Of a DNA stretch of 37,690 nt, positions 8,929 through 30,428 are shown piece by piece (the first letter of the stretch is position 1; the number at the start of each line of letters is the position of its first letter). This stretch comes from an uncultured bacterium (GTDB taxonomy: Bacteria > Bacillota > Clostridia > Christensenellales > CAG-917). The DNA lies in assembly GCA_949432885.1 (NCBI GenBank), contig CASQXY010000013.1:1-37690 (forward strand), given 5' to 3'. The translations under genes were made by a program, and so were the position numbers. The notes beneath the pieces were generated by a model. It searched no databases and was not told where the DNA came from. It was given only the letters and a program-made list of their open reading frames with translations.

Positions 8929-9825
8929 TTATTGAATGGAGAGAGATTTCAAAGAATACTGCATCTCGAATCTTTCGCCCGTAGCCTCGTTTTTGTAAGG
9001 CTCTATTATCTTGACCAGAATATTTTTGATAGGCCAGTTTTGGTAGGTGATATTAGCGTCGTCGGCGGCGTAGTAGAGAGTTTGAGACATTCCCGTAACC
9101 TGCGTGGAGCGCGAAATGCCAATCTGATAGCAGGGCACGCCTTTTTCCGCATAGGCGTGGAGCGTATCGGTATAAGCGGTCTTTATTTCCGCAACGGAAT
9201 TGCCGCTTGCCGTAATAGTAGCCGTCGCTGCCTCGGTTTCGGTTACGAGCGGAAGAGAGAAGGAAAGAGCAAGACCCGAGGAAAAAGTAGTCACCGAACG
9301 CAGCGCCTGTTGGAACTGATTGTTGTCGAACACCGTTCCCGACGCGCCCACCGAGCCGCTTGAAGATTCGCCGTTTAGTATGCGCGTGTACTCGTAGTTG
9401 CCGCCCGCATAGGTGCCTTGCACGCTGAAAGTATTTTTGCCGTTTACGTTTTGGATTCTGTACGAATAAGCGGGCACCATATAGCTCGTGCCGCCGACCA
9501 AATTGTAGTAGCATCCCGTTTCGTATATCGTATCTTTATGCGCGAGTCTGCCTCTTACGAGTATACCTTCCTGCACATTTTTGAGAGTCGCGGTTCCGAA
9601 ATCTGTTATCTCACTGCCTGCGTTATATGCGTCGAGGCTGACCGTGTACGTGCCGGTAGAATTGTCGGCGGTGTCGAGAACGTCGTATTCAAACTGCTCG
9701 TGACGGTGGTGTTGCAAAATATTCGCAAGCTGACCCTGCGGTGTCGCCTTGTTGCAGGCGGTGAGTCCTATCCCGATTGTCAGAGTCATCACTAAAATTA
9801 AACAGATAAGTATAATCTTTTTCAT
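8929..9825 (-). CDS. Predicted lipoprotein of unknown function
   Basis: The 298-residue protein starts MKKIILICLILVMTLTIG with lipobox LTAC (C24), so it should be secreted, lipidated by Lgt and cleaved by signal peptidase II. The mature part is rich in Ser, Thr, Tyr and Asn with beta-type alternation, for example YTVSLDAYNAGSE, GGTSYMVPAYSYR and TATITASGNSVAEIKT. I recognise no domain. The frame is open to 9885, but the signal peptide fixes the start at 9825. TATAAT (9835-9840 on the minus strand) lies only nine bases before that ATG and no Shine-Dalgarno site is visible, so the mRNA may be nearly leaderless. Confidence 0.75.
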   Translation of the reverse strand: MKKIILICLILVMTLTIGIGLTACNKATPQGQLANILQHHRHEQFEYDVLDTADNSTGTYTVSLDAYNAGSEITDFGTATLKNVQEGILVRGRLAHKDTIYETGCYYNLVGGTSYMVPAYSYRIQNVNGKNTFSVQGTYAGGNYEYTRILNGESSSGSVGASGTVFDNNQFQQALRSVTTFSSGLALSFSLPLVTETEAATATITASGNSVAEIKTAYTDTLHAYAEKGVPCYQIGISRSTQVTGMSQTLYYAADDANITYQNWPIKNILVKIIEPYKNEATGERFEMQYSLKSLSIQ

Positions 9826-9834
9826 AATAAAGCC

Positions 9835-9862
9835 ATTATAACATAAAAAATTCAAACCGCAA
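9835..9862 (-). promoter_or_regulatory. Promoter of the lipoprotein gene
   Basis: Minus strand TTGCGG (9857-9862), 16 bp spacer, TATAAT (9835-9840). The predicted +1 falls two or three bases before the ATG. Confidence 0.6.
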
Positions 9863-10004
9863 CTTAAATAGAGTCTATTATTCAAATATAGCCGCCGAAT
9901 AAAGTATATTGGACTCGGAATTTCGGTTTTTAAGTGCGATTTTCAAACGGAGCGCGACGTTTTCTGCTGTCGCAAAGTCAAATTTATATACCGTCCCGAT
10001 AATT

Positions 10005-10037
10005 AAATAAATAAAAACTGTTAGTTTTTATTTATTT
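10005..10037. repeat. AT-rich 15 bp perfect inverted repeat upstream of addB
   Basis: AAATAAATAAAAACT (10005-10019), loop GTT, and the exact complement (10023-10037). It ends 11 bases before the addB -35. It lies between diverging genes, so it is not an obvious terminator; an operator or upstream promoter element is possible. Confidence 0.6.
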
Positions 10038-10048
10038 CGACATTGCCG

Positions 10049-10077
10049 TTGAAAGTTTGCGCGAGGACTGTTATAAT
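10049..10077 (+). promoter_or_regulatory. addB promoter, predicted leaderless
   Basis: TTGAAA (10049-10054), 17 bp spacer, TATAAT (10072-10077). The A of the addB ATG (10084) is seven bases after the -10, exactly where +1 is expected. Confidence 0.8.
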
Positions 10078-10083
10078 TCGGTT

Positions 10084-13000
10084 ATGAAAATAATCACTTC
10101 AAATTCATCTCGCTATGCGTACAGGGGCGTTTTGGAAGAACTGAAACTCCGCCGCAAAGAGAGTAATATAGTAATTGCGCCCGACAGATTCACGGCTTCC
10201 GTTGAAAGGGGGCTCATATCCTCCTTGGGAATAGAGAGCACCTTTGGCATAGAGGTCATGTCTTTTACGAGACTTGCGGACAGACTGGTAGGCAGAGCGA
10301 TAAAAAAGTGTCTAACGCCAGAGGGCTCCGTTATGCTCATAGGGCAGGTCATCGTGCAAAACCGAAACAAGCTAGAATACTACAAAAACGCCGCGTTCGC
10401 AAACGGATTTGAAAGCGAGCTTTATGCCGCGCTTACGGCAATACGCAACAGCGGCATAACGACGCAAGACCTGAAAGCGAAAATGAACGACATGCCTCCC
10501 TCTCTGAGAGCCAAGACGCACGATATCGCTCTCATATACGACGGATATCTGGATGCGCTCAGCGGCAGACACAGCGATTCGTCGACCAGACTGTATGCGC
10601 TTGCGGAGCACATAAAAAACCATCCCGAGAGCGTAGCCGCAATAAACTTTTACTGTACTGATATCTATGAGTTTTCCGCTCCTGAATTGGAGATTATATC
10701 CGCGCTTGTAAACAGCGCGCTGTCCGTTACGGTGGGCGTTACAAGCGGCTATGACAATCCAAACAGGCGCATATATCCCGACAGAGTTATAGCCAAACTC
10801 AAAGCGGCTTGCCGCGACAAAGTGACGGTGGAACGAAACGACGAGCCGCTGTCTCCGCCCGTACAGGCGATTTCGACAAGGCTGTTTTCCTATCGCCGTT
10901 CGGACGTCGGAACGGAAAACGGCGGAAAGGTGACGCTGCGCGTAGCAAAGGACAGATACGAAGAAATCCTAGCATTCGCGCTTGACGTTGTAGAGCACGT
11001 AAGAGCGGGCGGAAGATATAAGGACTTCGAGGTGTTCGTAAGCGATACGGACGACTATGCGGCGGAACTCAAAGCAGTTTTTTCGAGGTACGGAATCCCT
11101 TTTTTCATTGACGATAAGGAATTGCTGTCCGAGCAGACAAAGGTGCGCTACATGCTCGACGCCGTTGCATGCGCAAGAAGCGGTTTTCGCAGAAGAGAGG
11201 TGCTTGATTTCGTAAAGAATCCGCTTTTCTGCTATGTTGCGGGAGGAGAAGACAACGTCTATCTGTTTGAGAATTACGTGCTGAAATATAATATAGACCG
11301 TTCCCGCTTTTTCAGTGAATTTACACTAAAAGAGGATTTAAAGTATTCAAAATTCAGTAATAAAGGCGCGGATTGCAAAAACTGCGTCCAAAATCCACCG
11401 CCTGCCGAGAACGCAGCGCCCGAGGCGGTGCGCAGGATTCTTGTCGAAATCATGTCTCCGCTCACATCAAAAGGAAACGTTGATATCGGGGATTTTGTAA
11501 AAGCGGCGAGGCTCATGCTTGAAAACTGCGACAGCGCGTGGAGAGCTCATGTGGAAAGGCTCGCAGAGCTTAGCGAGTATTATCGCAAGTGTGCGGAGCA
11601 AGTCGATAAAAAGCTGTCGGACGTGCTCGAAGAGATAGAAACAGTGCTAGATATGCAGACGGACGTGGCAGGGTTTGAGAACATATTCAAATCCATGCTG
11701 AAAACTCTGAAAATCGCGCTTGTGCCAACCTATCTCGACTGCGTGTTTGTAGGCAGTTACGACAGTAGGTTTATGGGCGCGGGGCATATTTATATGATGG
11801 GCGCGACAAACGACAAATTCCCGAGAGCGTCGGGAGGCGGCGCGGTGCTCACTCCGAGAGACGAGGAGTATTTCCAAAAAATAGGGCTCAGCGTGACTCC
11901 CAACGAGAGGCAGAAGCTGATGACTGATATGTACGCGGTTTGCGACATAATGAAAAAACCGCACGGCAGGCTCTGCGTAAGCTATCCCGAATCGGGAGGC
12001 GGCGCGGCGCTCCGCCCCTCGGTAGCGATAAGGGAGCTTGCGGATTTGCTGTGCGAGAACGGCGCTCCTCTCAAAATAGAAAGGATAGATTTTGAAAGGC
12101 TCACGAGGCTTGGAGCGGAGGCATGCGCAAGGCGTTCCGCTACGCTGTTCGCAACTGAAAAAAGCAGTTATTACGAGGTTTTGCGCAACGCCGCGTCAGG
12201 TCGCGTTCCTCTCGAAGAGAGAGAAGCGTACGGTTCGGCGCTTATGTGCATGTCGGAAAGCGACAGACGGAGACTGGACGGGATATACGATACTCCCGAG
12301 AGGATATCTCTGCCAAAGGACGCGTATTTTGCCGAAAGCACGAGCGTAAGCAGACTGGAAACCTTTTTCAAGTGTCCTTACTCTCATTATTTCAATTACA
12401 TCCTCGGACTGAAAAAACGAAAGGACGGCACGCAGGAGGGCACGGAAAACGGCACAGTGCTCCACTTTGTTCTGGAAAGATTTTTTTCGGACGTGCGCGA
12501 CGGAATGATAACTTCAAAAAAACAGATACGTCAGAAGGCGTACGCTTATTTCGACGAGGCCATAATCGCAAACGGCTTCACGGTGCTGCTGGAAAAAGCG
12601 GATACCGGCAGACTGCTTGCGAGGGTAAAAGAAGAGGGCGTGCAGGTCTGCGAGGATTTGTACGATATATCTCTGCGCTCCGAGTTTAAGCCCGCGTTGC
12701 TGGAAGCCAAAATAGGAGAGAACGGAATAAACCCTATGTCGCTGACGGTCGGCGGCAAAAAAATAAGGTTGAAAGGCACTATTGACAGAGTCGATATGCT
12801 TGACGACATGTTTACAGTTGTGGATTACAAGACTTACAAGAGCGCCGACCTTACTTTAAAAGAGCTTTACTATGGGCAGAAGATACAGCTTTATATCTAT
12901 ATGAAAGCGGTCGAGGAAAGCTTGAAAGCCAATCCCGTAGGCGTTTTTTATCTTCCTATTTTCGCAGGTTTTACAGGCGATGGGACGGACAGATATAAAT

Positions 13001-13368
13001 ATAAAGGGCAGGTCACGGACAAAACGGAAATTATGCGGAAGCTGGATTCTTTGGCGGCTGACGACCCGAAAAAATCAGTGATACCTTTCAAACAGACGCG
13101 CGACACGTTGAGTTCGGAGGTGCATTTGACAAAAGAGAGCTTCGATATGCTAGGCGAATATGCCAAAAATCTCGCGGCAAAGGGCGCGGAGGAAATTGCG
13201 AACGGATACATAAAGCCTTCGCCCGTCAAAGACGCGTGCAAGCGATGCAGGTACTTTGAAATCTGCTCCTATTGCGAGCGCGAGGAACGCAAGTTTATGA
13301 AAACGTCCATGTCGTCCTTCAAAACGGAGACGGAACCTGCGGAGGTGAATTATGACGCATTACAATGA
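10084..13368 (+). CDS. addB: ATP-dependent helicase/nuclease AddB
   Basis: AddB is the second nuclease and structural subunit of AddAB, which resects double-strand breaks up to Chi sites for RecA. The 1094-residue protein opens KIITSNSSRYAYRGVL. Near the C-terminus it has SRLETFFKCPYSHYF (C764), GTIDRVDMLDD, and VVDYK of the PD-(D/E)xK nuclease. A cysteine cluster C1052-x2-C1055-x5-C1061 follows, which with C764 gives the AddB iron-sulphur pattern. An extra C1064 is also present. A TTG at 10057 opens the same frame but overlaps the promoter, so ATG 10084 is preferred. It overlaps addA by 17 bp. Confidence 0.96.
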   Translation: MKIITSNSSRYAYRGVLEELKLRRKESNIVIAPDRFTASVERGLISSLGIESTFGIEVMSFTRLADRLVGRAIKKCLTPEGSVMLIGQVIVQNRNKLEYYKNAAFANGFESELYAALTAIRNSGITTQDLKAKMNDMPPSLRAKTHDIALIYDGYLDALSGRHSDSSTRLYALAEHIKNHPESVAAINFYCTDIYEFSAPELEIISALVNSALSVTVGVTSGYDNPNRRIYPDRVIAKLKAACRDKVTVERNDEPLSPPVQAISTRLFSYRRSDVGTENGGKVTLRVAKDRYEEILAFALDVVEHVRAGGRYKDFEVFVSDTDDYAAELKAVFSRYGIPFFIDDKELLSEQTKVRYMLDAVACARSGFRRREVLDFVKNPLFCYVAGGEDNVYLFENYVLKYNIDRSRFFSEFTLKEDLKYSKFSNKGADCKNCVQNPPPAENAAPEAVRRILVEIMSPLTSKGNVDIGDFVKAARLMLENCDSAWRAHVERLAELSEYYRKCAEQVDKKLSDVLEEIETVLDMQTDVAGFENIFKSMLKTLKIALVPTYLDCVFVGSYDSRFMGAGHIYMMGATNDKFPRASGGGAVLTPRDEEYFQKIGLSVTPNERQKLMTDMYAVCDIMKKPHGRLCVSYPESGGGAALRPSVAIRELADLLCENGAPLKIERIDFERLTRLGAEACARRSATLFATEKSSYYEVLRNAASGRVPLEEREAYGSALMCMSESDRRRLDGIYDTPERISLPKDAYFAESTSVSRLETFFKCPYSHYFNYILGLKKRKDGTQEGTENGTVLHFVLERFFSDVRDGMITSKKQIRQKAYAYFDEAIIANGFTVLLEKADTGRLLARVKEEGVQVCEDLYDISLRSEFKPALLEAKIGENGINPMSLTVGGKKIRLKGTIDRVDMLDDMFTVVDYKTYKSADLTLKELYYGQKIQLYIYMKAVEESLKANPVGVFYLPIFAGFTGDGTDRYKYKGQVTDKTEIMRKLDSLAADDPKKSVIPFKQTRDTLSSEVHLTKESFDMLGEYAKNLAAKGAEEIANGYIKPSPVKDACKRCRYFEICSYCEREERKFMKTSMSSFKTETEPAEVNYDALQ

Positions 13369-16300
13369 AAAAAATACGGTTGTCGCGGATGTCATAAAAC
13401 CTAATGCCGCAGACGAAATCAGACTGGAAAAATTGAAAAAAGACGGCAATCTTACTCTTACCGAGGCTCAGAAGCAAGCGGTGCTCGCAAAGGGAAAGAT
13501 TCTCGTTTCGGCGGCGGCGGGAAGCGGAAAAACCTCGACCATGGTCAAGCGTATCATTCTTATGATTGCCGAGGGCGTGAGCCTTCGTAATATGTTGGTG
13601 CTCGTATATAACACCGCGGCGGCGGACGAGCTGAAAGAGCGGCTTCACCTCGAACTTTTCAATATGGCGTGCTCCGAAACGGGAGAACTAAGAGAGCGCT
13701 TCGGTCGGGAGCTTGACGAGCTTCCTCTTTGTCATATCTGTACGATACACAGCTTTTGCAACTCTCTCATACGCGACAATTTCGAGAAGCTCGGGATATC
13801 GCCTACCTTCGACGTGCTTGACGAGCAGGCGCACGCCGCGTATATGAACGAGGCTCTCAATAATGTTTTCGAGGAGTATTCCGAGGAGGGCGACGGGGAG
13901 TTTTCGGATATCGCGGAGATATTTTTGCAGGCGAGAAAGGAAGACAATCTGAAAACCAACATAATGAAACTGCGCGGAATTATAGACGTTCAGCCTGACA
14001 GAGAGGAGTTTATAAAAAGAGCTCTGGAATGCTTCGAGAGCTTTGATGAGAGCGAATTTATTGCCGTTCTAGAACACTATTATAAACGCTTTTTTGAAGA
14101 CGCGTCGGAGAGACTCTCGGATATCGAAGAAACGCTGTCCGCAATGTCCGTCGGCAGATTTTCGGAGGCGGTTTCCGAGACGTTGTCCTTTTGTACACAG
14201 GAACTGAATGCGTCGACGTTCAGGGAAATGCTATATATAGCTTCCGAATGCGAAAAGCCCGTTTTAGGCAGGAGAAGCCCCAAACTCGGCGAGCTTGAAA
14301 AGCAGACGACGGATATTGCCAAGTCGTATATCGACGAGGTGTACGGCGTCTGCGAGGAGCTTGAAGAATTATATGAATATTTAGAAGATTTTGAAGTTTA
14401 TCATGCACAAAACGCAGTTTATATAAAAAAATTGATAGAAATAACCAAGCGTTTTGACGATGAGCTCAAAAAAATCAAAAAAGAAGCGCAGGTTCTGTCA
14501 TTTGAAGATTTACAGCACGACGCGGCAAAACTTCTTACGGAATATCCCGAGCTCGGCGGCGAATACGAAGCGGTATTTGTGGACGAGTATCAGGACGTCA
14601 ATCCAACGCAGGAATTTATCATAGAGCGCGTCGTAAAAGGCGAGTGCTTTATGGTGGGCGACGTAAAGCAGAGTATTTACGGGTTTAGACTGGCGGACCC
14701 CAAGATATTCCTGTCGAGGCAGGAAAGCTATAAGAACGGCGAAGGCATTGCGATAGATTTCAACCGCAATTTCAGAAGCGCGAAAAATATTCTCGCATTT
14801 GTAAACGGAGTTTTCAATGCAGTTATGACGGAGAGGAGCGCGGATGTAAACTATAAAGATACGGCGGCGTTCGAGCTAGACGGCGCGCCCGAGGGCGGAA
14901 ACGTTCAGATTCATCTTTTCACGGAAAAGAAAACGGAACGTTCGGAAGCGGAGGGGCTATACGACATTACCAATCACAGGCAGACGGAGGACGGCGCGTC
15001 GGCGTCCGAGAGCGAGGGGCGGTTTATCGCAAGCGAAATCCGAACGCTTGTCGGCAGAGCCAAACGCGAGGGAGGCGGATACATAGGCTACGGGGATATA
15101 GCTATACTTTTCCGCAGCCGTTCGCGCGGGGCGCAGCAGATTGTGGAACAGCTAAAAAAAGAGGGTATTCCGATAGACGAAAGCGTGTTCGGCAGAAGCA
15201 CGGCAAGGCCCGAGAGGGAAATCATATCAATGCTTCGAGTGCTTGACAATCCGCGGCAGGACATTCCGCTCGCTGGCTTTATGCTTTCCTTTTTCGGCGG
15301 TTACAGCGAGAGCGAGCTTGCGAACGTCGCTATGCGCGAAGGCGATTGCCTTTACGACAAGGTTTTGGCGTACGCGGCTTTTGAAAGCGGAGGTACAGGA
15401 GAAGCGCAGTCGCACAATTATGACGCGGCGCTCGGAGAAAAACTGCGCGGCACGCTGAAAATGCTCGACGGATACAGGATAAAAGCCAGCTTCAAGAGCG
15501 TGTCGGAGCTTATGGACGGAATCGTGTCCGATTTCTGCTACGACGCCTATCTGATGATGGGAGGAGAGGCGGAGACATACGGGCTTAAAGCGTTTATACA
15601 GAGCGCGGCGAAGCAGAACGACTGTTCATTGGGAAGATTTTTGGACGGTTATTCCGAACTTGCGGACAGCCGTGCGCCGGCAGGCGGAGGAGAGCGCGTG
15701 CATATATCCACCTTTCACGGGTTTAAGGGACTGGAAATCCCCGTGACGTTTGTGGCGGACTGTGCGTACGGATTCAACTACGAATCGGGAAGCGGAGATT
15801 TGGTTGCGCTCGGAACGGGTTATATCGGACTTAAATATTTCGATTTCAAAAGGAAGCTGAAATTCAACACTTTGTCGAGGCTGGCGGTTTCCAAGCTTGT
15901 AAAACAGCAGAGGCTGAAAGAGGAAATGCGTCTCTTTTACGTAGCTCTGACAAGGGCGAAGCAGACGACGTATGTGACCGCCGCGCTATCGGCAAAAAAG
16001 AGGAGCGAATTCGGCGCGGTCGAAAAGATAGGCGGAGCGGGATGCGATTTGGATTTTATATCCTCGGCGATATGCAGGGGAAGCGTAGACGCGCCGGTTT
16101 TCTGTCATACGTCCGAGGAGTTTGCGGCGCGCTCGATAGACGTGACGCACGGCGTTCTGCCCTCCGACCGCAGGCTGGCGGAATATATTCTGAAAGAGAG
16201 AGAATACGTTTATCCGCATGCCGCGTCCACAAGGCTGGCGATGAAATACAGCGTTTCGTCGGTATACAAAGCGGACGAAAAATCCGTACCCGTTTTTGAA

Positions 16301-16807
16301 GAAGGAGCGAACGTGGGTACGTTGTATCACAGGATAATGCAATATATCGATTTCTTTGCCAGAGGAGAGGAACAGGTGAAATCGGAGCTTGGACGACTGG
16401 TATCCGAGGGATTGATAACGGAAGAAGAAGCGGACAAAATCGACGTCTCGCTTATAGTCGGATGCCTTGACTGCGAGGTTATGGATATGGCGAGGAAGGC
16501 TCTGCTTAGCGGCAGGTGCCTCAGAGAACAGCCGTTTATGATGTACAAGCCCGCAAACGAAATACGCGAGGATTTCAACTCGTCGGATAAAGTTTTGGTT
16601 CAGGGAGTAATAGACCTTTTCATCAGCGGGGAACGAAACGTGCTGGTGGACTTCAAATACTCGCGTTTGGATGACAAAAAACTCGTTGAAAAGTACAAAA
16701 CGCAACTTAAACTGTATAAAACGGCAATAGAAAGTGCGATTTCGGAAAAAATTGACGAGGTTTTGATATATTCGTTTATCAGCGGACGCGCGCTTAGATG
16801 CGATTGA
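13352..16807 (+). CDS. addA: ATP-dependent helicase/nuclease AddA
   Basis: AddA is the 3'-5' SF1 helicase and first nuclease of AddAB. The 1151 residues include LTEAQKQAVLAKGKILVSAA and Walker A AAAGSGKT (54-61), VYNTAAADELKERL, the motif II region AVFVDEYQDVNPTQEF, motif III VGDVKQSIYGFR, STFHGFKGLEIPVTFV, and motif VI FYVALTRAKQ. The C-terminal RecB-type nuclease shows VLVDFKYSR, with D1100 and K1102 at the catalytic positions. GGAGGT lies a few bases before ATG 13352, inside the end of addB, so the two are translationally coupled. Length and gene order match the Bacillus arrangement. Confidence 0.97.
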   Translation: MTHYNEKNTVVADVIKPNAADEIRLEKLKKDGNLTLTEAQKQAVLAKGKILVSAAAGSGKTSTMVKRIILMIAEGVSLRNMLVLVYNTAAADELKERLHLELFNMACSETGELRERFGRELDELPLCHICTIHSFCNSLIRDNFEKLGISPTFDVLDEQAHAAYMNEALNNVFEEYSEEGDGEFSDIAEIFLQARKEDNLKTNIMKLRGIIDVQPDREEFIKRALECFESFDESEFIAVLEHYYKRFFEDASERLSDIEETLSAMSVGRFSEAVSETLSFCTQELNASTFREMLYIASECEKPVLGRRSPKLGELEKQTTDIAKSYIDEVYGVCEELEELYEYLEDFEVYHAQNAVYIKKLIEITKRFDDELKKIKKEAQVLSFEDLQHDAAKLLTEYPELGGEYEAVFVDEYQDVNPTQEFIIERVVKGECFMVGDVKQSIYGFRLADPKIFLSRQESYKNGEGIAIDFNRNFRSAKNILAFVNGVFNAVMTERSADVNYKDTAAFELDGAPEGGNVQIHLFTEKKTERSEAEGLYDITNHRQTEDGASASESEGRFIASEIRTLVGRAKREGGGYIGYGDIAILFRSRSRGAQQIVEQLKKEGIPIDESVFGRSTARPEREIISMLRVLDNPRQDIPLAGFMLSFFGGYSESELANVAMREGDCLYDKVLAYAAFESGGTGEAQSHNYDAALGEKLRGTLKMLDGYRIKASFKSVSELMDGIVSDFCYDAYLMMGGEAETYGLKAFIQSAAKQNDCSLGRFLDGYSELADSRAPAGGGERVHISTFHGFKGLEIPVTFVADCAYGFNYESGSGDLVALGTGYIGLKYFDFKRKLKFNTLSRLAVSKLVKQQRLKEEMRLFYVALTRAKQTTYVTAALSAKKRSEFGAVEKIGGAGCDLDFISSAICRGSVDAPVFCHTSEEFAARSIDVTHGVLPSDRRLAEYILKEREYVYPHAASTRLAMKYSVSSVYKADEKSVPVFEEGANVGTLYHRIMQYIDFFARGEEQVKSELGRLVSEGLITEEEADKIDVSLIVGCLDCEVMDMARKALLSGRCLREQPFMMYKPANEIREDFNSSDKVLVQGVIDLFISGERNVLVDFKYSRLDDKKLVEKYKTQLKLYKTAIESAISEKIDEVLIYSFISGRALRCD

Positions 16808-16962: not shown

Positions 16963-18558
16963 GTGTTAACCGTATCGGCAGTGCAGTTTTTTTCCGAAGC
17001 GTTCGCTTGGTTTGCAAGGCTTTCAACCAAGTTGCCGAAGATAGATTTCAAGACATATTTCATAGTTGTCATTGCGCTGTTGTTGGGAGTCGGGCTTATC
17101 GTAGGATTGACATATTTCGGCTCGTACCGTTTCAAACTTCTCATTGCATGCAAAAAAATATTGCGTTATCTCGCGGACGCGGATTCGATTGACGACGACA
17201 ACGTAAGCGATTTTACGGCGCAGTGCTTTTCTTCAAAAGCGCCGTCCGCTTTGCGCGACTGCTGGGTTCAGTATCTCGGTGTGAGGTTCGGATATCCCAG
17301 TGAAATCGTCTCCGAGAAATCCGTATACGACGACAGAATAAAGCGCGTCAGAGAGGTCCGCGCAAGCGTGTATATCGGTATCGCGCTTATCATGATTGCG
17401 ATATTCGCGTTTTGGGGATGCGGCACTTTGAGTCAACCCGATATGGGCGTGATATTCTTCACAGGTCTGTTGATTTCGGGCGCGGTATATCTGGCTCTTG
17501 TGTTTATAAACCGCGCGTTGAGCAAATTGTGTCTGGAAACGTTCGGTCTCATGCAGGAGGACTTGGACGCGAAGGTGGATTTGCAGGTCGAAAAGAGCTA
17601 TGCTACGGACTCATCGCCGCTTGCTGAGCTAGCGGCTATGCTGGACGAAATCATAGCCCGAAACACTGCAAAGGACGTAGGCTTTGTCGCGGACGAGGGA
17701 GAGGAAACTCCTCTTGAAAAGCTCATCGCGGATATGCCTTCCGCGGCGGAGGACGGCGACGGGGGTCAAAGTCAAACTCAGAGCGAGGACGGGGAAGACT
17801 CCAAAGAGCAAATCGCAGATATCGAAGAGGTCAACGACGATTCGGAGAGCGTGACGGAAAGCGTCTCGGAAACGAGCGCCTCCAATGAGCAAGCCGAAGA
17901 AAAGTCCGAACCTAAAACCGCCGAGGAAAGCGAAGATAGTGCCAATCAAGCGCAACATGCGGCAAATGAAGAGCATTCAAACATTGCTCTATCCGCGGAA
18001 AATATGCCGATAGAAAATGCGGAAGAGGATGGCTCGGCGGAGGAGAACGGAGACGCAGAGTTTCCGACTTCCGAGGACAACATAGTTGAAGATAAGGGCA
18101 CTGCGGACGCTCAATCCGATTGCGAAGTCGAAAAGGAAGAACAGGACGCGGCGCAAATCGATAAAATAGAAGAGCGCGACCGCGGGGGTGCTCCGGAAGA
18201 GCAGGTATCGGAAGAGGCCGATGCGGAAGAGAATACGCCCGAGCAGGCGTCCGCAGACGAGAGTGCTTCGGAAAGCGGCGCAGATGTCGCCGAGGTAGAC
18301 GTCGGAAAAGAGCCTCAGGTCAAATATGTGGTCGATGGACCTGTCGAGGATGACGATATTGTAAAACCCGCAAAGCTCGTAAAGCTCCCCAATTTGGTGG
18401 ACTATATGCTTGCGCGCAATCCGTCTCGGAACATTTTGGTGAACATTTCCAAGTTGTTGATAACGACTCACGAGAAGTTCAAAAACAGTCCGCAGGACGT
18501 GGTAATTGTAGAGAACTGTATGAATAAGGTGCTGTCGGCATTACAGAATGCACGGTAA
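16963..18558 (+). CDS. Three-helix membrane protein with acidic linker and novel shared C-terminal domain
   Basis: The 531-residue protein starts at GTG with a strong AAGGAGG six bases upstream. It has likely membrane helices at about 31-52, 134-152 and 161-182, with a soluble loop (53-133) after the first. A disordered linker rich in Glu, Asp, Ser and Ala runs from about 225 to 450. The last 79 residues (453-531) form a compact domain starting VKYVVDGPVEDDDIVKPAKL, which recurs at the end of the next gene. The helix pattern, large cytoplasmic part and acidic tail suggest a membrane anchor presenting the domain on a flexible arm in the cytoplasm. I do not recognise either part as a named family. 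It follows addA by 155 bp but has its own promoter. Confidence 0.8.
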   Translation: MLTVSAVQFFSEAFAWFARLSTKLPKIDFKTYFIVVIALLLGVGLIVGLTYFGSYRFKLLIACKKILRYLADADSIDDDNVSDFTAQCFSSKAPSALRDCWVQYLGVRFGYPSEIVSEKSVYDDRIKRVREVRASVYIGIALIMIAIFAFWGCGTLSQPDMGVIFFTGLLISGAVYLALVFINRALSKLCLETFGLMQEDLDAKVDLQVEKSYATDSSPLAELAAMLDEIIARNTAKDVGFVADEGEETPLEKLIADMPSAAEDGDGGQSQTQSEDGEDSKEQIADIEEVNDDSESVTESVSETSASNEQAEEKSEPKTAEESEDSANQAQHAANEEHSNIALSAENMPIENAEEDGSAEENGDAEFPTSEDNIVEDKGTADAQSDCEVEKEEQDAAQIDKIEERDRGGAPEEQVSEEADAEENTPEQASADESASESGADVAEVDVGKEPQVKYVVDGPVEDDDIVKPAKLVKLPNLVDYMLARNPSRNILVNISKLLITTHEKFKNSPQDVVIVENCMNKVLSALQNAR

Positions 18559-18612
18559 TGACGCGGAGTTTATTCGTGAAATAAGAGCAAATAAAAAAAC
18601 AAGAGGTAAAGT

Positions 18613-19554
18613 ATGTTCGGGAAGAAAGCGAAATTAGCAGAGCAGCAGGCAACGGAAAAACAGGTTGCGCAACAAACCGCACAAGTGCAAGCTGACCAAA
18701 TGGAGCTTTATTGCGAAAGCGAATTGCTTGATGACGCCGATGAGAATGAAAACGTTCCCTATGCTTCTTTGCGTACGAAAAACGGCGACAAAGACATCAG
18801 AATATTCTATGAAAGCGAACTCATCGACGACGAAGACGACGAGCTTGTAGACGAAGACGACGAGTACGATGATGACGAATACGAAGAGGAAGAGGCCGCG
18901 CCCGCTCCCTCCGAAGTAAGACGTCCTGCGCCCGCATACTATGAAGACGATGAGGAAGAGGAAGACGAAGAGGTCGAAATCGAACTGGTTGTCGATACCG
19001 ACGAATTGAAGAGGGCAAAGGAAAGCGGAGTCGATATCGGCGAGGCTATAAGGCGCAGTATCGAAGGCGGCGCAATGGAGGACGACGATGAAGACGAGCT
19101 CGTAGAGGACGAGGCGGAAACCGAGGAAGAGTACGAAGAGGAGCCCGCGCAGGTCGAAGAGCCGCAAGCCGCCGTAGAGGAAGAACCTCAAGAAGAGCCC
19201 GAAGAGGAGGTATTCACTGAAGAAGAGCAGCAGCCCGTTCAACAGGTTGCAGAGCCCGTCCAAGTTGCAGAGCCCGTCCAAGTTGCAGAGCCCGCGCAGG
19301 AGGCTGAGGAGCCGGAAGTCAAGTACGTTGTCGAAGGACCTGTTGAGGACGACGATATCGTGAAGCCTGCAAAGCTGGTCAAACTGCCCAACCTAGTGGA
19401 TTATATGATTTCCTTGAATATGTCCAAGCGCATGAAGATGAACGTATGTATGCTTCTGCTTACGGCGTATCACAAGTATAAACACATCCCGCGCGAGAAG
19501 GCTATCGTCATCACGTGTATGAAAAAGATGCTCAACGCGCTTTTGCAGGGCTAA
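18613..19554 (+). CDS. Highly acidic protein with the same novel C-terminal domain
   Basis: This 313-residue protein has no membrane segment. Its start has AGAGGT upstream, and it lies 54 bp after the previous gene. A short basic, Gln-rich N-terminus (1-30) is followed by two related motifs, YCESELLDDADE (33-44) and FYESELIDDEDDE (65-77). Then come Asp/Glu runs and a helix-like block ELKRAKESGVDIGEAIRRS (131-149). A three-fold VAEPVQ repeat lies just before the C-terminal domain (236-313), which starts VKYVVEGPVEDDDIVKPAKL. The first 30 residues of that domain match the upstream protein at 29 positions and the remaining 48 at 17. It is probably a soluble partner or competitor of the upstream protein; function unknown. 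Confidence 0.8.
   Translation: MFGKKAKLAEQQATEKQVAQQTAQVQADQMELYCESELLDDADENENVPYASLRTKNGDKDIRIFYESELIDDEDDELVDEDDEYDDDEYEEEEAAPAPSEVRRPAPAYYEDDEEEEDEEVEIELVVDTDELKRAKESGVDIGEAIRRSIEGGAMEDDDEDELVEDEAETEEEYEEEPAQVEEPQAAVEEEPQEEPEEEVFTEEEQQPVQQVAEPVQVAEPVQVAEPAQEAEEPEVKYVVEGPVEDDDIVKPAKLVKLPNLVDYMISLNMSKRMKMNVCMLLLTAYHKYKHIPREKAIVITCMKKMLNALLQG
19246..19299 (+). repeat. Three 18 bp tandem repeats inside the acidic gene
   Basis: Units at 19246-19263, 19264-19281 and 19282-19299. The first two are identical (GTTGCAGAGCCCGTCCAA) and the third differs at its end. They encode VAEPVQ, VAEPVQ, VAEPAQ, an in-frame repeat that could vary in number between strains. Confidence 0.9.
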
Positions 19555-19678: not shown

Positions 19679-20632
19679 TTATTTGAACATCTTCTTTTTT
19701 ATCAACACGATAAGCATAATGATGCAGATAATCACGTTGATGCCGACAACAATCCAAAATCCCCATTGCTTACCTTCAAAAGGAACGCCCGTATTCATGC
19801 CCCAAAGCGCCGCAATCATTGCGGGGACGTCCACCATAAGAGTGAGAATGGTGAGGGTCTTCATAACGATATTGAGGTTGTTGGAGATTATGGAAGCGTA
19901 TGCGTCCATAGTTCCATTCAAAATATCACGATATATATTCGACATCTCGATTGCCTGTCTTACTTCGATGAGCACGTCTTCCCATAGGTCTTCGTCTTCC
20001 TCATAGAATTTGACGAGCCTCGGGACCTTGTCGAGCACTCCGTTGTTTGAACGCAGCGAGGTGCTGAAATAGACGAGAGCCTTTTCGAGAGAAAGCATTT
20101 CTATAAGCTCCTCGTTTCGCATGGATTTTTCGAGTATGCCTTGCACGCGCTGGCTGGCTCTGTCTATTTGTTTGAGGTATTGCAGATATTTTTTTGCTAT
20201 AACGTACTGTAACTGTAAAAAGAATCGGGTGCGTTTGTGGATATTGAAATCGCGCACGTATCTGCCCGCAATTAGGTCGTAGATGATGGACGTCTCGTTC
20301 AGACATACGGTGACAAGCGTTTTGTCGGTCAGTATACAGCCGAAAGGCAAAGTAGCGTAGGTATACTTGTCGTCGTCCTCTTCCGTAATCGGAATGTCGG
20401 TGACAGCCATTATGACGGAGTCCTCTTTTTCTATATAAGCGCGCTCTTCCGCGTCAAGCGCGGCTTTGAGGTACTCTTCGGGAATGGCGGTGGCGGTTGA
20501 AATCAATTCGATTTCCTTGTCCGTAGGGTTGGACATATGAATCCATTGGTCGGAAAAGTCATAACCGTCGACAATAAGCTCCTTATCGACTTCCACGACG
20601 GATTTGTTGATTTTTTTGTAAACCTGAAACAT
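19679..20632 (-). CDS. corA: CorA-family magnesium/divalent cation transporter
   Basis: The 317-residue protein has the family layout. A soluble alpha/beta N-terminal domain (1-150, with TYATLPFGCILTDKTLVTVC at 91-110) is followed by long helices (about 150-260). Two C-terminal membrane helices (about 258-278 and 291-311) are separated by the loop with the signature GMN (278-280, in WGMNTGVPFEGKQWGFW), and a basic tail (KKKMFK) ends the protein. CorA forms pentameric channels for Mg2+ and sometimes Co2+ or Ni2+. I start it at MFQVYKK (20632), with AAGGAGG six bases before, rather than at the upstream ATG 20659. It is transcribed alone, divergent from ppdK. The ion preference cannot be read from the sequence. 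Confidence 0.93.
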   Translation of the reverse strand: MFQVYKKINKSVVEVDKELIVDGYDFSDQWIHMSNPTDKEIELISTATAIPEEYLKAALDAEERAYIEKEDSVIMAVTDIPITEEDDDKYTYATLPFGCILTDKTLVTVCLNETSIIYDLIAGRYVRDFNIHKRTRFFLQLQYVIAKKYLQYLKQIDRASQRVQGILEKSMRNEELIEMLSLEKALVYFSTSLRSNNGVLDKVPRLVKFYEEDEDLWEDVLIEVRQAIEMSNIYRDILNGTMDAYASIISNNLNIVMKTLTILTLMVDVPAMIAALWGMNTGVPFEGKQWGFWIVVGINVIICIIMLIVLIKKKMFK

Positions 20633-20961
20633 TTCGGCCTCCTTGCGGCATAGCAACACGCGCCGCGCAAAGAAACCTAAGCGTGTGCGCGATTATTGGA
20701 GTGGTTGACTACTTCGAGGGTCAGCGTCCATAATATTTGCACCTCATAAAACAAGATACTGATATTTTATCAAAAATAAGGAGACAAGGCAACAGTTTGG
20801 AAGCAAAATATTTGCGCGCGGACAATACGGAAACGCAGTTTTTTATTTATATGTTATAATTGCTATAATTTGTAAATATAATTTACTTTTTTCTTGCAAA
20901 AGTTTGGGTATTTTGATATCATAAATTTATCAAAAAAGAATTCTTTTAGGAGGACTTCTAA
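20633..20961. other. Divergent control region between corA and ppdK (329 bp)
   Basis: It contains ribosome sites at both ends, tandem extended -10 boxes for ppdK (20852-20869), and a short palindrome TGATA-TTT-TATCA near 20769-20781. On the corA side, TTGATA-N17-TTTATG on the minus strand is a weak promoter candidate. The corA leader can form a small hairpin (ACACGC/GCGTGT), but I could not fit it to the conserved M-box magnesium riboswitch. No tRNA or other RNA gene is evident. Confidence 0.5.
20852..20869 (+). promoter_or_regulatory. Two tandem extended -10 boxes upstream of ppdK
   Basis: TGTTATAAT (20852-20860) and TGCTATAAT (20861-20869) are back to back. Both fit the extended -10 rule TGnTATAAT; no strong -35 is seen. 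AGGAGG (20948-20953) precedes ATG 20962, giving a leader of about 85 nt. Confidence 0.65.
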
Positions 20962-25784: not shown

Positions 25785-27932
25785 TTATTTTATTGCTCCT
25801 TTATTTATTATTTCTACAGATGACATCTTTCGCAACCGTTTAAGAGGAAGTATACAACCAAGTATAATAGCGGTGAAGTCTATGGCAAATAGAATTATGA
25901 TTAGAGCAGGGTTAAATTTTAACAAGTCAAAACTAACATTACTGAAATCAACGATATAATTATTATATAAAACCGAGCCTACTGCTGTAAAAATGATAGA
26001 TAAAAGATATACTACGACGGCGATTATAAAGGAACTGTATAGGTATATTTTGCATTGCTGTCTGAAATTGGCACCGAGCGAAGTGATAATGCCGATTTGT
26101 TTTGTCTGACCAAATATAGAAGTCGCAACAAAATTTATCATAAATACAAAAGATACGATTAGCAATATTATGCCTATATATGTATAAAGGTTCTTGTCCA
26201 TATTTATGTAGTCTATTGAACGGTAAAACGCGTTTATTTCCATATTTCCGTCGGTCATAATACTGTTTGAAAAACGGAAAACATTATTATTGTTATTATA
26301 ATCGAAGACAAAATTCGCAAAACTTTTGAAATTGCTTTTGTTCGGGGTGATATTGCACAGGATATATGACCATTCGTCAAAACAGTTTTCGCTTATAAAA
26401 ATTTTCTCGTGATAGTTTTCGGCATACATTATGCTGCTTGATTGCGGATGAGATTCTGAACATTTTTTGTCGCATCCCGTATCGACTACGCCGACAATAG
26501 TTTTTATATCGCTGTCCCCGAATTTCCCGTTGTTGGGCATAGGCTTGCCGTTTGTAAAGGTGTTGACCAACACGGAAATACTGTGTCCGATAATATCTCC
26601 GGCAGAATTTATAGGATACGTTTGTCCGTTTTCTTTTATACCGGCTACCGAAAATGTATTGAGCATACATTCGTTTATAGCGATTTCGTTTTCATTTTCA
26701 GGCAATCTGCCTGTAATTTCAAAATTCATATTCCGACATTCCGACAAGCTCATATACATAAATCCGTCTGCGAACAGAGAAAGATGGTCGGAGGAAATCG
26801 GTATAATTTTATTAAGTTGCTTTACGGTTGCCGCTATCGAGTTTTGAAATGAATCGATGTAGGCACTGCATATCAAGTTTAATTGCAAATCATACTTATT
26901 CTGCAATAGGTTAATATCAGATTTTGACAGGCAAAGCTCGTTATATACAAACTTGTCGCCGCCTATTAATTGGTCAAACGTGCCAGTATTAGAGTTTTCT
27001 ACTTCCTGATATTTGTAAATTGCAGTGTATTCGAGATTTTTTTCGTATACGGCATTGATAAAACTTTTATACGGATTCATCATTGAGATATTAATGGATA
27101 ATCCAAATAAGGAAAACGTGATAACGGACATTATCAGCGTAATAATCAAACGAATCGGATGACGTTTGAAATTGCTACAACCGATTTTCAGTGCGGGCTT
27201 TAAGGGAAGTTTGGATTTATTCCATTGTTTATGCGAAGCGTTTTCCGAATTACAGGGAGTATCTGACGCGCTGTCGTTTATTATGACGCCGTCTTCGAGT
27301 TCTATTATACGGTCTCCGTAAGTAGCGGCATATTCTTTGTCGTGGGATACAACTATGACCAACTTATCCTTGGATAGTTCTTTCAATAAGGACATTACGT
27401 TGTCGCCGTTGCTTTTATCGAGCGCACCCGTAGGTTCGTCCGCAAAAATGATATCGGGATCTTTTATCAAAGCACGGGCAATGGCTATTCTTTGTTTTTG
27501 ACCTCCGGAAAGCTCGGTTACTTTGCGCTTTTCATATCCGTCCAATCCGACCTTTGTCAAAACTTCTTTTACATTATTATTCGTTTCTTTTTGTCCTTGC
27601 AGTTGAATTGCGAGAGCGATATTTTCTTCCACGTTCAACTCGGAAATCAGGTTGTATTCCTGAAATACAAAACCGCAACAAGTGTTTCTGTAATCGTCCA
27701 ACTCGCTTTTAGTAAGTTTGCAGAGGTCTTTGCCCGAAACTTCGATACTGCTTCCGTTATCCGCCTTATCTAACCCGCTTAAAACATTGAGAAGAGTAGA
27801 CTTGCCGCTGCCGGATTTTCCGAGAAAGAAAACCATGCCGCAATCAGCAAGGCAGAAATTTGCGTTTTTGAGCGCCTGAACGGGGAGGGACTTTTTAGGT
27901 CTGTACGTCTTTGATAAATTTGTTATTTTCAT
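25785..27932 (-). CDS. ABC transporter, ATPase fused to MacB/FtsX-type permease (copy 1)
   Basis: In this 715-residue protein the N-terminal ATPase has Walker A GKSGSGKST (38-46), Q-loop FVFQEYN, signature LSGGQKQR (141-148), Walker B IIFADEPTGALD (161-172) and the H-loop VSHDKEYA. A permease half follows: one helix at about 251-275, a large extracytoplasmic domain (to about 590), and three C-terminal helices. This is the type VII (MacB/LolE-like) fold used for export or signalling across one membrane, for example of peptides. The substrate is unknown. The ATPase is closely related to the upstream gene, 75 bp away. The permease part is only distantly similar, and the gene looks AT-rich. No clear terminator follows. 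Confidence 0.88.
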   Translation of the reverse strand: MKITNLSKTYRPKKSLPVQALKNANFCLADCGMVFFLGKSGSGKSTLLNVLSGLDKADNGSSIEVSGKDLCKLTKSELDDYRNTCCGFVFQEYNLISELNVEENIALAIQLQGQKETNNNVKEVLTKVGLDGYEKRKVTELSGGQKQRIAIARALIKDPDIIFADEPTGALDKSNGDNVMSLLKELSKDKLVIVVSHDKEYAATYGDRIIELEDGVIINDSASDTPCNSENASHKQWNKSKLPLKPALKIGCSNFKRHPIRLIITLIMSVITFSLFGLSINISMMNPYKSFINAVYEKNLEYTAIYKYQEVENSNTGTFDQLIGGDKFVYNELCLSKSDINLLQNKYDLQLNLICSAYIDSFQNSIAATVKQLNKIIPISSDHLSLFADGFMYMSLSECRNMNFEITGRLPENENEIAINECMLNTFSVAGIKENGQTYPINSAGDIIGHSISVLVNTFTNGKPMPNNGKFGDSDIKTIVGVVDTGCDKKCSESHPQSSSIMYAENYHEKIFISENCFDEWSYILCNITPNKSNFKSFANFVFDYNNNNNVFRFSNSIMTDGNMEINAFYRSIDYINMDKNLYTYIGIILLIVSFVFMINFVATSIFGQTKQIGIITSLGANFRQQCKIYLYSSFIIAVVVYLLSIIFTAVGSVLYNNYIVDFSNVSFDLLKFNPALIIILFAIDFTAIILGCILPLKRLRKMSSVEIINKGAIK
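27272..27500 (-). repeat. 229 bp tract identical to 29769-29997
   Basis: Base-by-base reading finds no difference between this stretch and 29769-29997 (offset 2497). It encodes the ATPase segment from the signature motif to just past the H-loop (about residues 145-220). Both flanks diverge abruptly. Confidence 0.92.
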
Positions 27933-28007
27933 ATTATATTCACCGAAAACCGTGTTGATGGTTAGATTTTTTTATCCGAGTTGCATTTCGTAGTAGCAAC
28001 AATAGAT

Positions 28008-30428
28008 TTATTCGTTTTGCAGATAATCTGTCGGCATTAGATTTGACAGCCTAATCAACGGAATAAAACAGCCGAGTAATGAGAAGAGTAGTACAGTGCC
28101 TGCAGTTATTAAATATGCGTAGATATTAAAGCCGAAGAACGATAAGGATATTCCGACGTACTCATTTAACAAGGTGCAGAGGATAGGAATACAGATTGAC
28201 ATACACACCAATATAATCAAGCCGACAATAAGACCTTCCCAAATGAATATTTTTATCAGATTGTAATTATTACACCCGTTTGCTTTGAGTATTCCGATAG
28301 TCTTGGTCCTGTCCGTCAGACTTTGCGACAGGAAATTCAACAGCAAACAAACGGAGAAAACCGCAAATACGCCGAAGACTATATAAGCAATTCGTTTTAT
28401 GCTGTTTACATAATCGGAAATGCCGTCTGCGTTGTTGATTATATAATTGTTGATTCTAAACGTACCGTTTTGCGGTATATAGTCTTTTATCGATTTATTG
28501 TTAACGACTATAAGAGAATCGAAGTCGCCGCCGATATGCCGATAAAGGCTTTCGTATGAATTGTTGTCAATCAGAATAGCACAATCTTCATCCAACGTAT
28601 GAAAGCCGTTTATTGTGAAGTCATATTGCAATCCGAATTTGATATCCGAATACGAACAAGAGAATTCATTCGGCAAGTCATAGATGTCGCAGTATTTTCT
28701 ATATACACTTATGATTTGTGCCGCATTATAATATTCGTCGCCTGTTTCATAGACATAAAGAGCGTAGAATAAAGAGCCGTAGTCACCGTAATTTGTTCCG
28801 TTAAATTCTATCGAGCAATCGTAATAACGCAGTAGTGCAGGGATTAAGATTGACGGAAGATAAGCGCCGTTATTCGCGTCATTGATTTTGACTAGGTTGT
28901 CATAGTTTTTATAGAGCGCTATTTTTTCTACGTCCATAATCTGCGATCCGTCAAATTCAAGCGAGCAACAAGCTCGGTCGGTATTTATGCCGACGCTTTT
29001 ATAATCTTCAATGTTTTTTACAAACAGTAAATTGTGTGCGGAGCAATTTATTTCATAGACAAATTCGCTTGCCAGCGACTGCTCGGCATTTGCATTTTTA
29101 ACGGTTGCGTATTTATTTGTATTTAAGTTTGTATCTATAATCGAGGTTATTGTATATGCGATATCGTCTATTCTAAGAGTTTTTCCTATCAGATTCAGTT
29201 CCGATTGTTCGGAGAATTTTAAGTGGTTAAGGACTTCGGCGGTGTATCTTGTAATACCAATTTCGTTTTTGTTCCGCGGCAGTTGTCCGTATAGCGTAAA
29301 ATCATAACCGTCGATTGTCTCTTGCGATAATTCGCAGATTTTGTTCGGCAGAAAAGAATAATATGTATTGAGCAAATCTGGATTTATTTCAACGTCATAT
29401 TCCATGGGATAGTCTATCGCGCCTATGCAAGTGTAACCTAAATTGCTATCGAAGCTCTCTTTCTCAGTTTCTTTTATAGGTATCGTATTGCTATCATTGC
29501 CGTATTTGTGCATTTGACTGTATGCAAGTCCGTTTGAACTTATCGCATCGAAAACAACGTCATTGAAACGGTTTAAACTTATTGTAAGAGAAACGCAGAA
29601 GATAGTAAACGCAACAATAGCCAAAAGTATTGTCGCTATCAGGCGTATGGGATGATTTTTGAATGTGCCGCATCCGATTTTCAATGCGGATTTTGCGGGA
29701 AGATGCGACAGCTTCCATTCGCCGTGAGATTGGTTATCTGTTTTAGAGCAGGGGGTATTAAAAGAATTGTCGTTTATTATGACGCCGTCTTCGAGTTCTA
29801 TTATACGGTCTCCGTAAGTAGCGGCATATTCTTTGTCGTGGGATACAACTATGACCAACTTATCCTTGGATAGTTCTTTCAATAAGGACATTACGTTGTC
29901 GCCGTTGCTTTTATCGAGCGCACCCGTAGGTTCGTCCGCAAAAATGATATCGGGATCTTTTATCAAAGCACGGGCAATGGCTATTCTTTGTTTTTGTCCT
30001 CCCGAAAGCTCGGTTATTTTTCGCTTTTCATATCCGTCCAATCCGACTAGCGCAAGCACGTCTTTAATCTTGTTTTGCGTGTCCTTTTGACCTTGCAGTT
30101 GAATTGCGATGGCAATATTTTCTTCTACGTTCAGTTCGGGAATGAGGTTGTATTCCTGAAACACGAAACCGCAGCAAGTATTTCGATAATTGTCTAATTC
30201 ATTTATTGACAGTTGGCATATATCTTTTCCCGAAACTTCAATACTGCTTCCGTTATCCGCCTTATCTAACCCGCTTAAAACATTGAGAAGGGTGGATTTG
30301 CCGCAGCCTGACTTTCCTAGAAAGAATATCATACCCGTATCTGCAATACTGAAACTAACGTTCTTTAAAGCCTGCACAGAGGGAGAGTTTTTTAATGTAA
30401 ATGTTTTTGATAAATTTGAAACTCTCAT
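28008..30428 (-). CDS. ABC transporter, ATPase fused to MacB/FtsX-type permease (copy 2)
   Basis: This 806-residue paralogue of the downstream gene is first in the operon. It has Walker A GKSGCGKST (38-46), LSGGQKQR (141-148), IIFADEPTGALD and VSHDKEYA. It then has a helix near 255-280, an extracytoplasmic domain about 90 residues longer than in copy 1, and three helices in the last 150 residues. Each protein carries one permease half, so the two may form a heterodimer, although homodimers are also possible. Part of the ATPase DNA is identical to copy 1 (see the repeat entries). The ribosome site GGAGAGG lies about 12 bases before ATG, which is rather far. No two-component system or regulator is adjacent. 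Confidence 0.88.
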   Translation of the reverse strand: MRVSNLSKTFTLKNSPSVQALKNVSFSIADTGMIFFLGKSGCGKSTLLNVLSGLDKADNGSSIEVSGKDICQLSINELDNYRNTCCGFVFQEYNLIPELNVEENIAIAIQLQGQKDTQNKIKDVLALVGLDGYEKRKITELSGGQKQRIAIARALIKDPDIIFADEPTGALDKSNGDNVMSLLKELSKDKLVIVVSHDKEYAATYGDRIIELEDGVIINDNSFNTPCSKTDNQSHGEWKLSHLPAKSALKIGCGTFKNHPIRLIATILLAIVAFTIFCVSLTISLNRFNDVVFDAISSNGLAYSQMHKYGNDSNTIPIKETEKESFDSNLGYTCIGAIDYPMEYDVEINPDLLNTYYSFLPNKICELSQETIDGYDFTLYGQLPRNKNEIGITRYTAEVLNHLKFSEQSELNLIGKTLRIDDIAYTITSIIDTNLNTNKYATVKNANAEQSLASEFVYEINCSAHNLLFVKNIEDYKSVGINTDRACCSLEFDGSQIMDVEKIALYKNYDNLVKINDANNGAYLPSILIPALLRYYDCSIEFNGTNYGDYGSLFYALYVYETGDEYYNAAQIISVYRKYCDIYDLPNEFSCSYSDIKFGLQYDFTINGFHTLDEDCAILIDNNSYESLYRHIGGDFDSLIVVNNKSIKDYIPQNGTFRINNYIINNADGISDYVNSIKRIAYIVFGVFAVFSVCLLLNFLSQSLTDRTKTIGILKANGCNNYNLIKIFIWEGLIVGLIILVCMSICIPILCTLLNEYVGISLSFFGFNIYAYLITAGTVLLFSLLGCFIPLIRLSNLMPTDYLQNE
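29769..29997 (-). repeat. 229 bp tract identical to 27272-27500
   Basis: Partner of the tract in the downstream ABC gene. A second, shorter identical block of nearly 50 bp lies further upstream in both genes, around Walker A. Confidence 0.92.

Follow-up and report, generated by a model that had tools for sequence, protein, structure and literature searches.

We report that two adjacent genes of an uncultured bacterium of the order Christensenellales, studied in a stretch of 37,690 nucleotides (the window), encode a membrane protein (MEM) and a soluble protein (SOL) that end in the same C-terminal domain, and that this pair apparently goes back to a single gene that had an internal start. The earlier description of a two-gene locus thus holds for the window, as a state that seems to be secondary. 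We consider it fairly probable that an ancestral internal-start gene was later split, and that the tethered and free copies of the domain share a partner, with the ratio between them controlling tethering.

Both open reading frames that the earlier note had placed here, with their shared C-terminal domain, are present and preceded by good ribosome-binding sites (Table 1). MEM begins at the GTG at position 16963, about 5 nt downstream of the ribosome-binding site AAAGGAGG; a later GTG was ruled out as the true start, since this ribosome-binding site belongs to GTG 16963. The arms that carry the domain are rich in acidic residues, with 71 D/E vs 10 K/R in the MEM linker and 91 D/E vs 15 K/R in SOL residues 1–235, which supports the proposal that acidic, flexible arms present one domain in a tethered and a free version. 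In the MEM linker of the window, no internal ATG is preceded by a ribosome-binding site. The ESEL(L/I)DD element close to the SOL start is a diverged repeat, present in two copies at 18715–18743 and 18811–18839.

Table 1. Coordinates of the features discussed, in nucleotides of the window
Feature	Position	Strand	Remarks
addB	10057–13368	+	ADDB_N, PDDEXK_1; first gene of the conserved block
addA	13352–16807	+	directly 5' of MEM here and in the majority of orthologous loci read
MEM gene	16963–18558	+	531 aa, three membrane helices (predicted)
MEM N-terminal domain, residues 8–240	16984–17682	+	alignments A1/A3, AlphaFold2 model
MEM acidic linker, residues 241–452	17683–18318	+	fast evolving
MEM C-terminal domain	18319–18555	+	linear motif 18319–18384, then three-helix bundle about 18385–18549
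Concerted tract	MEM 18319–18369, SOL 19318–19368	+	first 17 codons of the domain
SOL ribosome-binding site GAGG	18603–18606	+	upstream of ATG 18613
SOL gene	18613–19554	+	soluble acidic protein, 313 aa
SOL N-terminal signature MFGKK...ESELLDD	18613–18744	+	inside the single-MEM-gene linker in sister genera
SOL C-terminal domain	19318–19551	+	homologous to the MEM C-terminal domain
corA	19679–20659	-	gene after MEM/SOL

The last 79 residues of MEM and 78 of SOL align without gaps, and the identities counted earlier, 29 of the first 30 residues and 17 of the following 48, were reproduced. Of the first 90 bases 72 are identical, and at 16 or 17 identical residues the two genes use different codons, in agreement with the synonymous differences already noted. 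Between the two window copies pS is 0.84, with synonymous sites near saturation, and pN is 0.014. When the genome of the window (1.45 Mb, 99% complete) was searched with MEM, the only matches were MEM and SOL. A structural model of the domain (52 sequences, pLDDT 83) leaves residues 1–22 mostly unstructured and folds residues 23–77 into a three-helix bundle (helices 23–32, 37–54 and 58–77). Because the modelled bundle starts at residue 23, the 30 most identical residues correspond to a linear motif plus helix 1; their high identity is confirmed, but they do not form a domain core as had been suggested.

In comparison with G009, the closest relative, dN/dS is 0.029/0.82 and 0.018/0.52 for the C-terminal domain of MEM and 0/0.77 and 0.009/0.49 for that of SOL. 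The N-terminal domain of MEM is also low, at 0.042/0.67, and the MEM linker, at 0.49/1.39, lies far above both the N- and C-terminal domains. These values indicate that the C-terminal domain is under strong purifying selection, as previously claimed. Scans of MEM and SOL against Pfam, NCBIfam, PADLOC and PHROGs gave no trustworthy match, a sequence search of the PDB found no relative, a phage search gave no match, and Foldseek with the C-terminal bundle returned nothing below E 2.7. Matches to 8xMP, DUF2975 and Csx18 (E 1e-6 to 1e-2, among A1 members) were mutually inconsistent and typical of hydrophobic helices, and were rejected. The profile search that had been proposed as a check thus found no family match, and the statement that neither protein could be recognised stands as regards known families, but not for the membrane part of MEM, which has fold neighbours in ZorA, ExbB and TolQ (see below).

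Comparison within and between genomes indicates that the first 17 residues of the domain evolve in concert in MEM and SOL. Among genomes of the window's genus (g1) that have both genes, agreement between MEM and SOL over residues 1–17 is 0.67 within a genome vs 0.49 between genomes, and this excess was reached in 0 of 5000 permutations, which ignore phylogeny. The comparison with orthologues is independent of that limit: over the same residues g1 orthologues agree at 0.47 for MEM and 0.56 for SOL, both below the within-genome value. The within-genome excess is absent from residues 18–30 in g1 and weaker in residues 31–75 (0.45 vs 0.39). In G009, the first 17 codons of MEM and SOL are identical at 48 of 51 bases, vs 42/51 and 44/51 when each is compared with its window orthologue, while over the rest of the domain 77/141 bases agree between paralogues and 128–130/141 between orthologues. 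Recent gene conversion would leave such a pattern, although only a short tract is involved. In the window itself synonymous sites are saturated, so the effects of gene conversion and of a common selection on the motif are not fully separable there. The earlier conclusion that the match is not due to recent copying therefore holds for the window, given its pS, but not for the locus generally, given the G009 tract. In one g1 sublineage (loci L040, L045, L046 and L047) the MEM C-terminal domain falls inside the SOL clade, which points to a conversion that covered the entire domain.

We searched the family, the order and the class with profiles of the N-terminal part (A1, then A3) and of the C-terminal part (A2). 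At E <= 0.001 the MEM N-terminal part was found in 132 of 396 genomes and 45 of 142 genera of the order, and the class-wide search gave marginal matches only beyond it. MEM is a conserved membrane protein family named in no family library. It lies directly 3' of addB–addA in nearly every family with readable contigs, namely the window's family and f5, f7, f8, f9, f18, f24, f28, f30 and f32, so that the locus does stay beside addAB, as the earlier note had asked, in about ten families. The usual order is addB–addA–MEM, often with corA next. In some contigs, of f13 and f29, addA was not seen near MEM: the contig ends early, the gene is unrecognised, or it has moved. In f7, in f13 and in part of the f24 proteins, MEM itself could be seen to end in the C-terminal domain; the ancestral form is therefore a single membrane protein ending in a bundle.

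Some features of these neighbourhoods were recorded in passing. The corA gene is inverted in the window's family and on the same strand as MEM in other families (L122, L123, L131 and L181). At L130 of G160 (9607–16443, minus strand), addB and addA read as a single ORF of ~2280 aa, either because AddBA is truly fused or through a sequencing error. In G371, which otherwise belongs to f5, a very strong N-domain match lies at a contig start and may be contamination. Further along the window, at 25785–30428 on the minus strand, two tandem genes encode proteins of 715 and 806 aa, each starting with a LolD/MacB-type ABC ATPase domain.

Separate SOL proteins start with MFGKK or MFGKR (in G017, very near the start), followed in most of them by an ESE(L/I)-type acidic element, and the other separate SOL genes have GAGG or a close purine-rich variant at the same place before the ATG. 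This SOL start is found within the linker of the single-gene MEMs of the sister genera g7 and g8, as MFG(K/R)K, and of g9, as MFGWKRKE; in g7, no convincing ORF lies between MEM and corA. An SD-like site stands 4–15 nt before the linker MFG ATG in 15 of 15 single-gene MEMs (11 nt in g8), and before 0 of 37 other linker ATGs; these 15 genomes, from three sister genera, are related and not independent observations. Synonymous identity around the internal ATG is 0.81 in g7 vs 0.56 gene-wide (3 of 20000 resamples reach the observed value), 0.88 vs 0.64 in g8 (447 of 20000) and 0.92 vs 0.73 in g9 (200 of 20000), and among the 12-codon windows of the g7 gene, those that cover the internal start site rank highest. 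Judged by this signature, and in spite of the 11-nt spacing in g8, the g7, g8 and g9 genes probably make the MEM and SOL forms from one gene via an internal start. Older families (f24, f7, f5 and others) have MEM but no internal start, so not every lineage needs the free form.

In a tree of concatenated AddA, AddB, CorA and PPDK, g9, then g7, then g8 are successive relatives of g1. Since the one-gene genera branch around the nested g1, the two genes of g1 look derived. Co-occurrence of both genes in relatives, which the earlier note had asked about, was seen in g1 and g10, and the two-gene form is confined to these two genera. Over residues 31–75 the MEM and SOL domains of g10 are sister sequences (76% to each other and no more than 56% to all others), so that the g10 split looks independent of that in g1, and the window's genus and g10 appear to have split the gene separately. 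The history could also have run in the opposite direction, an ancestral MEM and SOL pair having fused in g7, g8 and g9, with the ATG and GAGG as relics or as peptide-coding sequence and no short product. Such a fusion would need a similar number of steps and would agree with the two-gene state in both main branches (g1 and g10), and MFG(K/R)KK could itself serve as a basic peptide motif. A peptide motif, however, does not explain why synonymous conservation around the ATG exceeds the gene average in three genera, and the SD has been kept in all 15 genes when no other linker ATG has one; the sisterhood of the g10 domains is also what separate duplication would give, although conversion could mimic it. 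We therefore regard the fusion as unlikely.

Partial losses are also found: only a soluble domain protein is present at the locus in g3 and g5, and SOL alone in G017, with G017 and g3 having kept the soluble domain protein and no detectable membrane part, which we count in favour of our main reading. The survival of G017 and g3 with no detectable MEM would also suit a view of MEM and SOL as old tandem paralogues with unrelated jobs, in which the domain acts as a general tail for stability or dimerisation, and so would the divergence of residues 31–75, over which MEM and SOL of the same genome are about 45% identical. We hold this to be distinctly unlikely, given that the motif evolves in concert in the two genes and that an internal-start arrangement is seen, both of which imply that the two forms are under shared selection.

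An AlphaFold2 model of the MEM N-terminal domain (32 sequences, pLDDT 73.6, pTM 0.59) places TM1 at about residues 29–53, TM2 at about 133–155 and TM3 within a long helix of about 158–204; the corresponding model helices are 28–52, 132–154 and 157–203. The predicted cytoplasmic helical loop contains invariant N79 and W100 (model numbering) and a conserved RFGYPSE, and the predicted topology agrees with that of the MotA/TolQ/ExbB/ZorA stator superfamily (three or four helices), with a cytoplasmic loop between TM1 and TM2/TM3 and a cytoplasmic C-terminus. Foldseek found ZorA as the closest structure (prob 1.00, E 2e-3, TM 0.55). In fold alignment the top five matches were ZorA from two organisms, followed by ExbB (Z 9.3) and TolQ (Z 8.6); the best (VIA) had Z 12.1 and rmsd 5.3 over 212 residues, which is under the aligner's safe level for helical bundles, and Shewanella ZorA had Z 10.8 and rmsd 3.7 over 174 residues. 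Designed helical proteins score up to Z 10.1, over about 80 residues only. The model is suggestive, not proof, of a ZorA/ExbB-like fold in the membrane part of MEM, which we do not assign to the superfamily.

In Zorya, the cytoplasmic tail of ZorA has been proposed to recruit nucleases (PMC11890865), and MEM adjoins a helicase-nuclease. Taken with the rank of ZorA, ExbB and TolQ among the fold matches, this would fit a MEM that is an active ion-driven stator of the ZorA/ExbB/MotA type with an unrecognised B subunit, its C-terminal domain coupling rotation to an effector such as AddAB. Several results make such a motor very unlikely. PF01618 (MotA_ExbB) had no match in MEM or in 12 genomes including that of the window, ExbD and MotB_plug had no match among 12 genomes, and no ZorB-type partner was found in them. 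None of 32 MEM members hit the PADLOC ZorA profile, and TM2 and TM3 of 32 MEM sequences have no conserved polar column, no invariant polar residue and no Ser/Thr pore ring. Profile–profile comparison of MEM with MotA did no better than a CorA control, and a match to a ZorA-like clostridial profile was discarded when its probability fell from 80% to 3.6%, the level of that control, without two ill-fitting members; the best Z score, too, stays below the safe level.

We return to the reading in which a split internal-start gene supplies tethered and free copies of one domain. MEM would be anchored in the membrane by a three-helix part of ZorA/ExbB-like fold and reach into the cytoplasm with a long flexible arm that carries the terminal motif and bundle, and SOL would be the same arm and bundle with no membrane part. 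In the ancestor of this lineage a single mRNA would most likely have yielded both products, the short one from an internal ribosome-binding site and ATG (MFG[KRW]K...), and duplication of the 3' part of the gene would have produced two genes in the window's genus and, separately, in g10, with the motif held alike in both products after the split. The MEM and SOL bundles presumably meet the same partner, or each other, and the ratio of free to tethered domain would set the amount of partner held at the membrane. The sequences show the shared domain, the synteny, the internal-start signature, the apparently separate splits and the concerted evolution. We infer that internal translation actually takes place, and that the products oligomerise, compete or co-assemble; that the partner might be AddAB, DNA or a DNA-repair complex is a guess.

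The linkage to addAB and the AT-hook arrays of family f28 are leads that point towards DNA or DNA repair and are not functional evidence. In 5 of 8 f28 genomes read, the tail of the MEM orthologue has 3–8 AT-hook-like motifs of the form (K/R)(x)GRP(x)(K/R). At f28 loci L127, L162, L163, L165, L166 and L189, MEM is roughly 750–1030 aa long, with KRGRPRK-like arrays in the cytoplasmic tail, and f28 MEM comes directly after addA wherever the junction was read. A broader conjecture, which we think rather doubtful, is that an order-wide, AddAB-linked MEM with a motor-less stator fold tethers a DNA-repair or nucleoid complex to the membrane, and that the free tail copy, made by an internal start and later by two independent splits, sets the amount tethered.

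The locus offers a natural series from one gene with two products to two genes, comprising the putative internal start in three genera and two apparent splits, together with partial losses and a shared motif that is still being exchanged. Automated annotation of single-gene genomes would overlook the second product. The MEM family, for its part, is tied to AddAB across an order and appears to have the fold of a rotary-motor subunit without the rest of the motor.

Among known systems, the likeness to AT-hook proteins lies in the f28 MEM tails, whereas MEM and SOL of the window have no AT-hooks and their arms are acidic. ZorA seems to resemble the modelled MEM in fold, as the best match over about 210 residues; it is also like MEM in its membrane helices with a cytoplasmic loop and long cytoplasmic C-terminal tail, and in being encoded beside DNA-cutting enzymes. 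MEM differs from ZorA and from ExbB/TolQ in having no significant sequence match to them, no polar ring in the pore and no B subunit that could be found; unlike ZorA, it occupies a conserved chromosomal locus and not a defence island, and its tail ends in a bundle after an acidic tether, while that of ZorA is a helical rod. The gene arrangement finds its parallel in SctQ/HrcQ/SpaO (with flagellar FliM–FliN), where a full-length protein and its C-terminal part likewise come from one gene and are encoded separately in other species. In hrcQ the internal start has a GAGG 11 nt before codon 211, the C-terminal product stabilises the full-length protein and functions together with it, and HrcQa and HrcQb are separate proteins in another species (PMC8553256). 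The two systems are unrelated in sequence, and the long form here, MEM, is a membrane protein which, unlike SctQ/HrcQ, retains its own copy of the C-terminal domain after the split.
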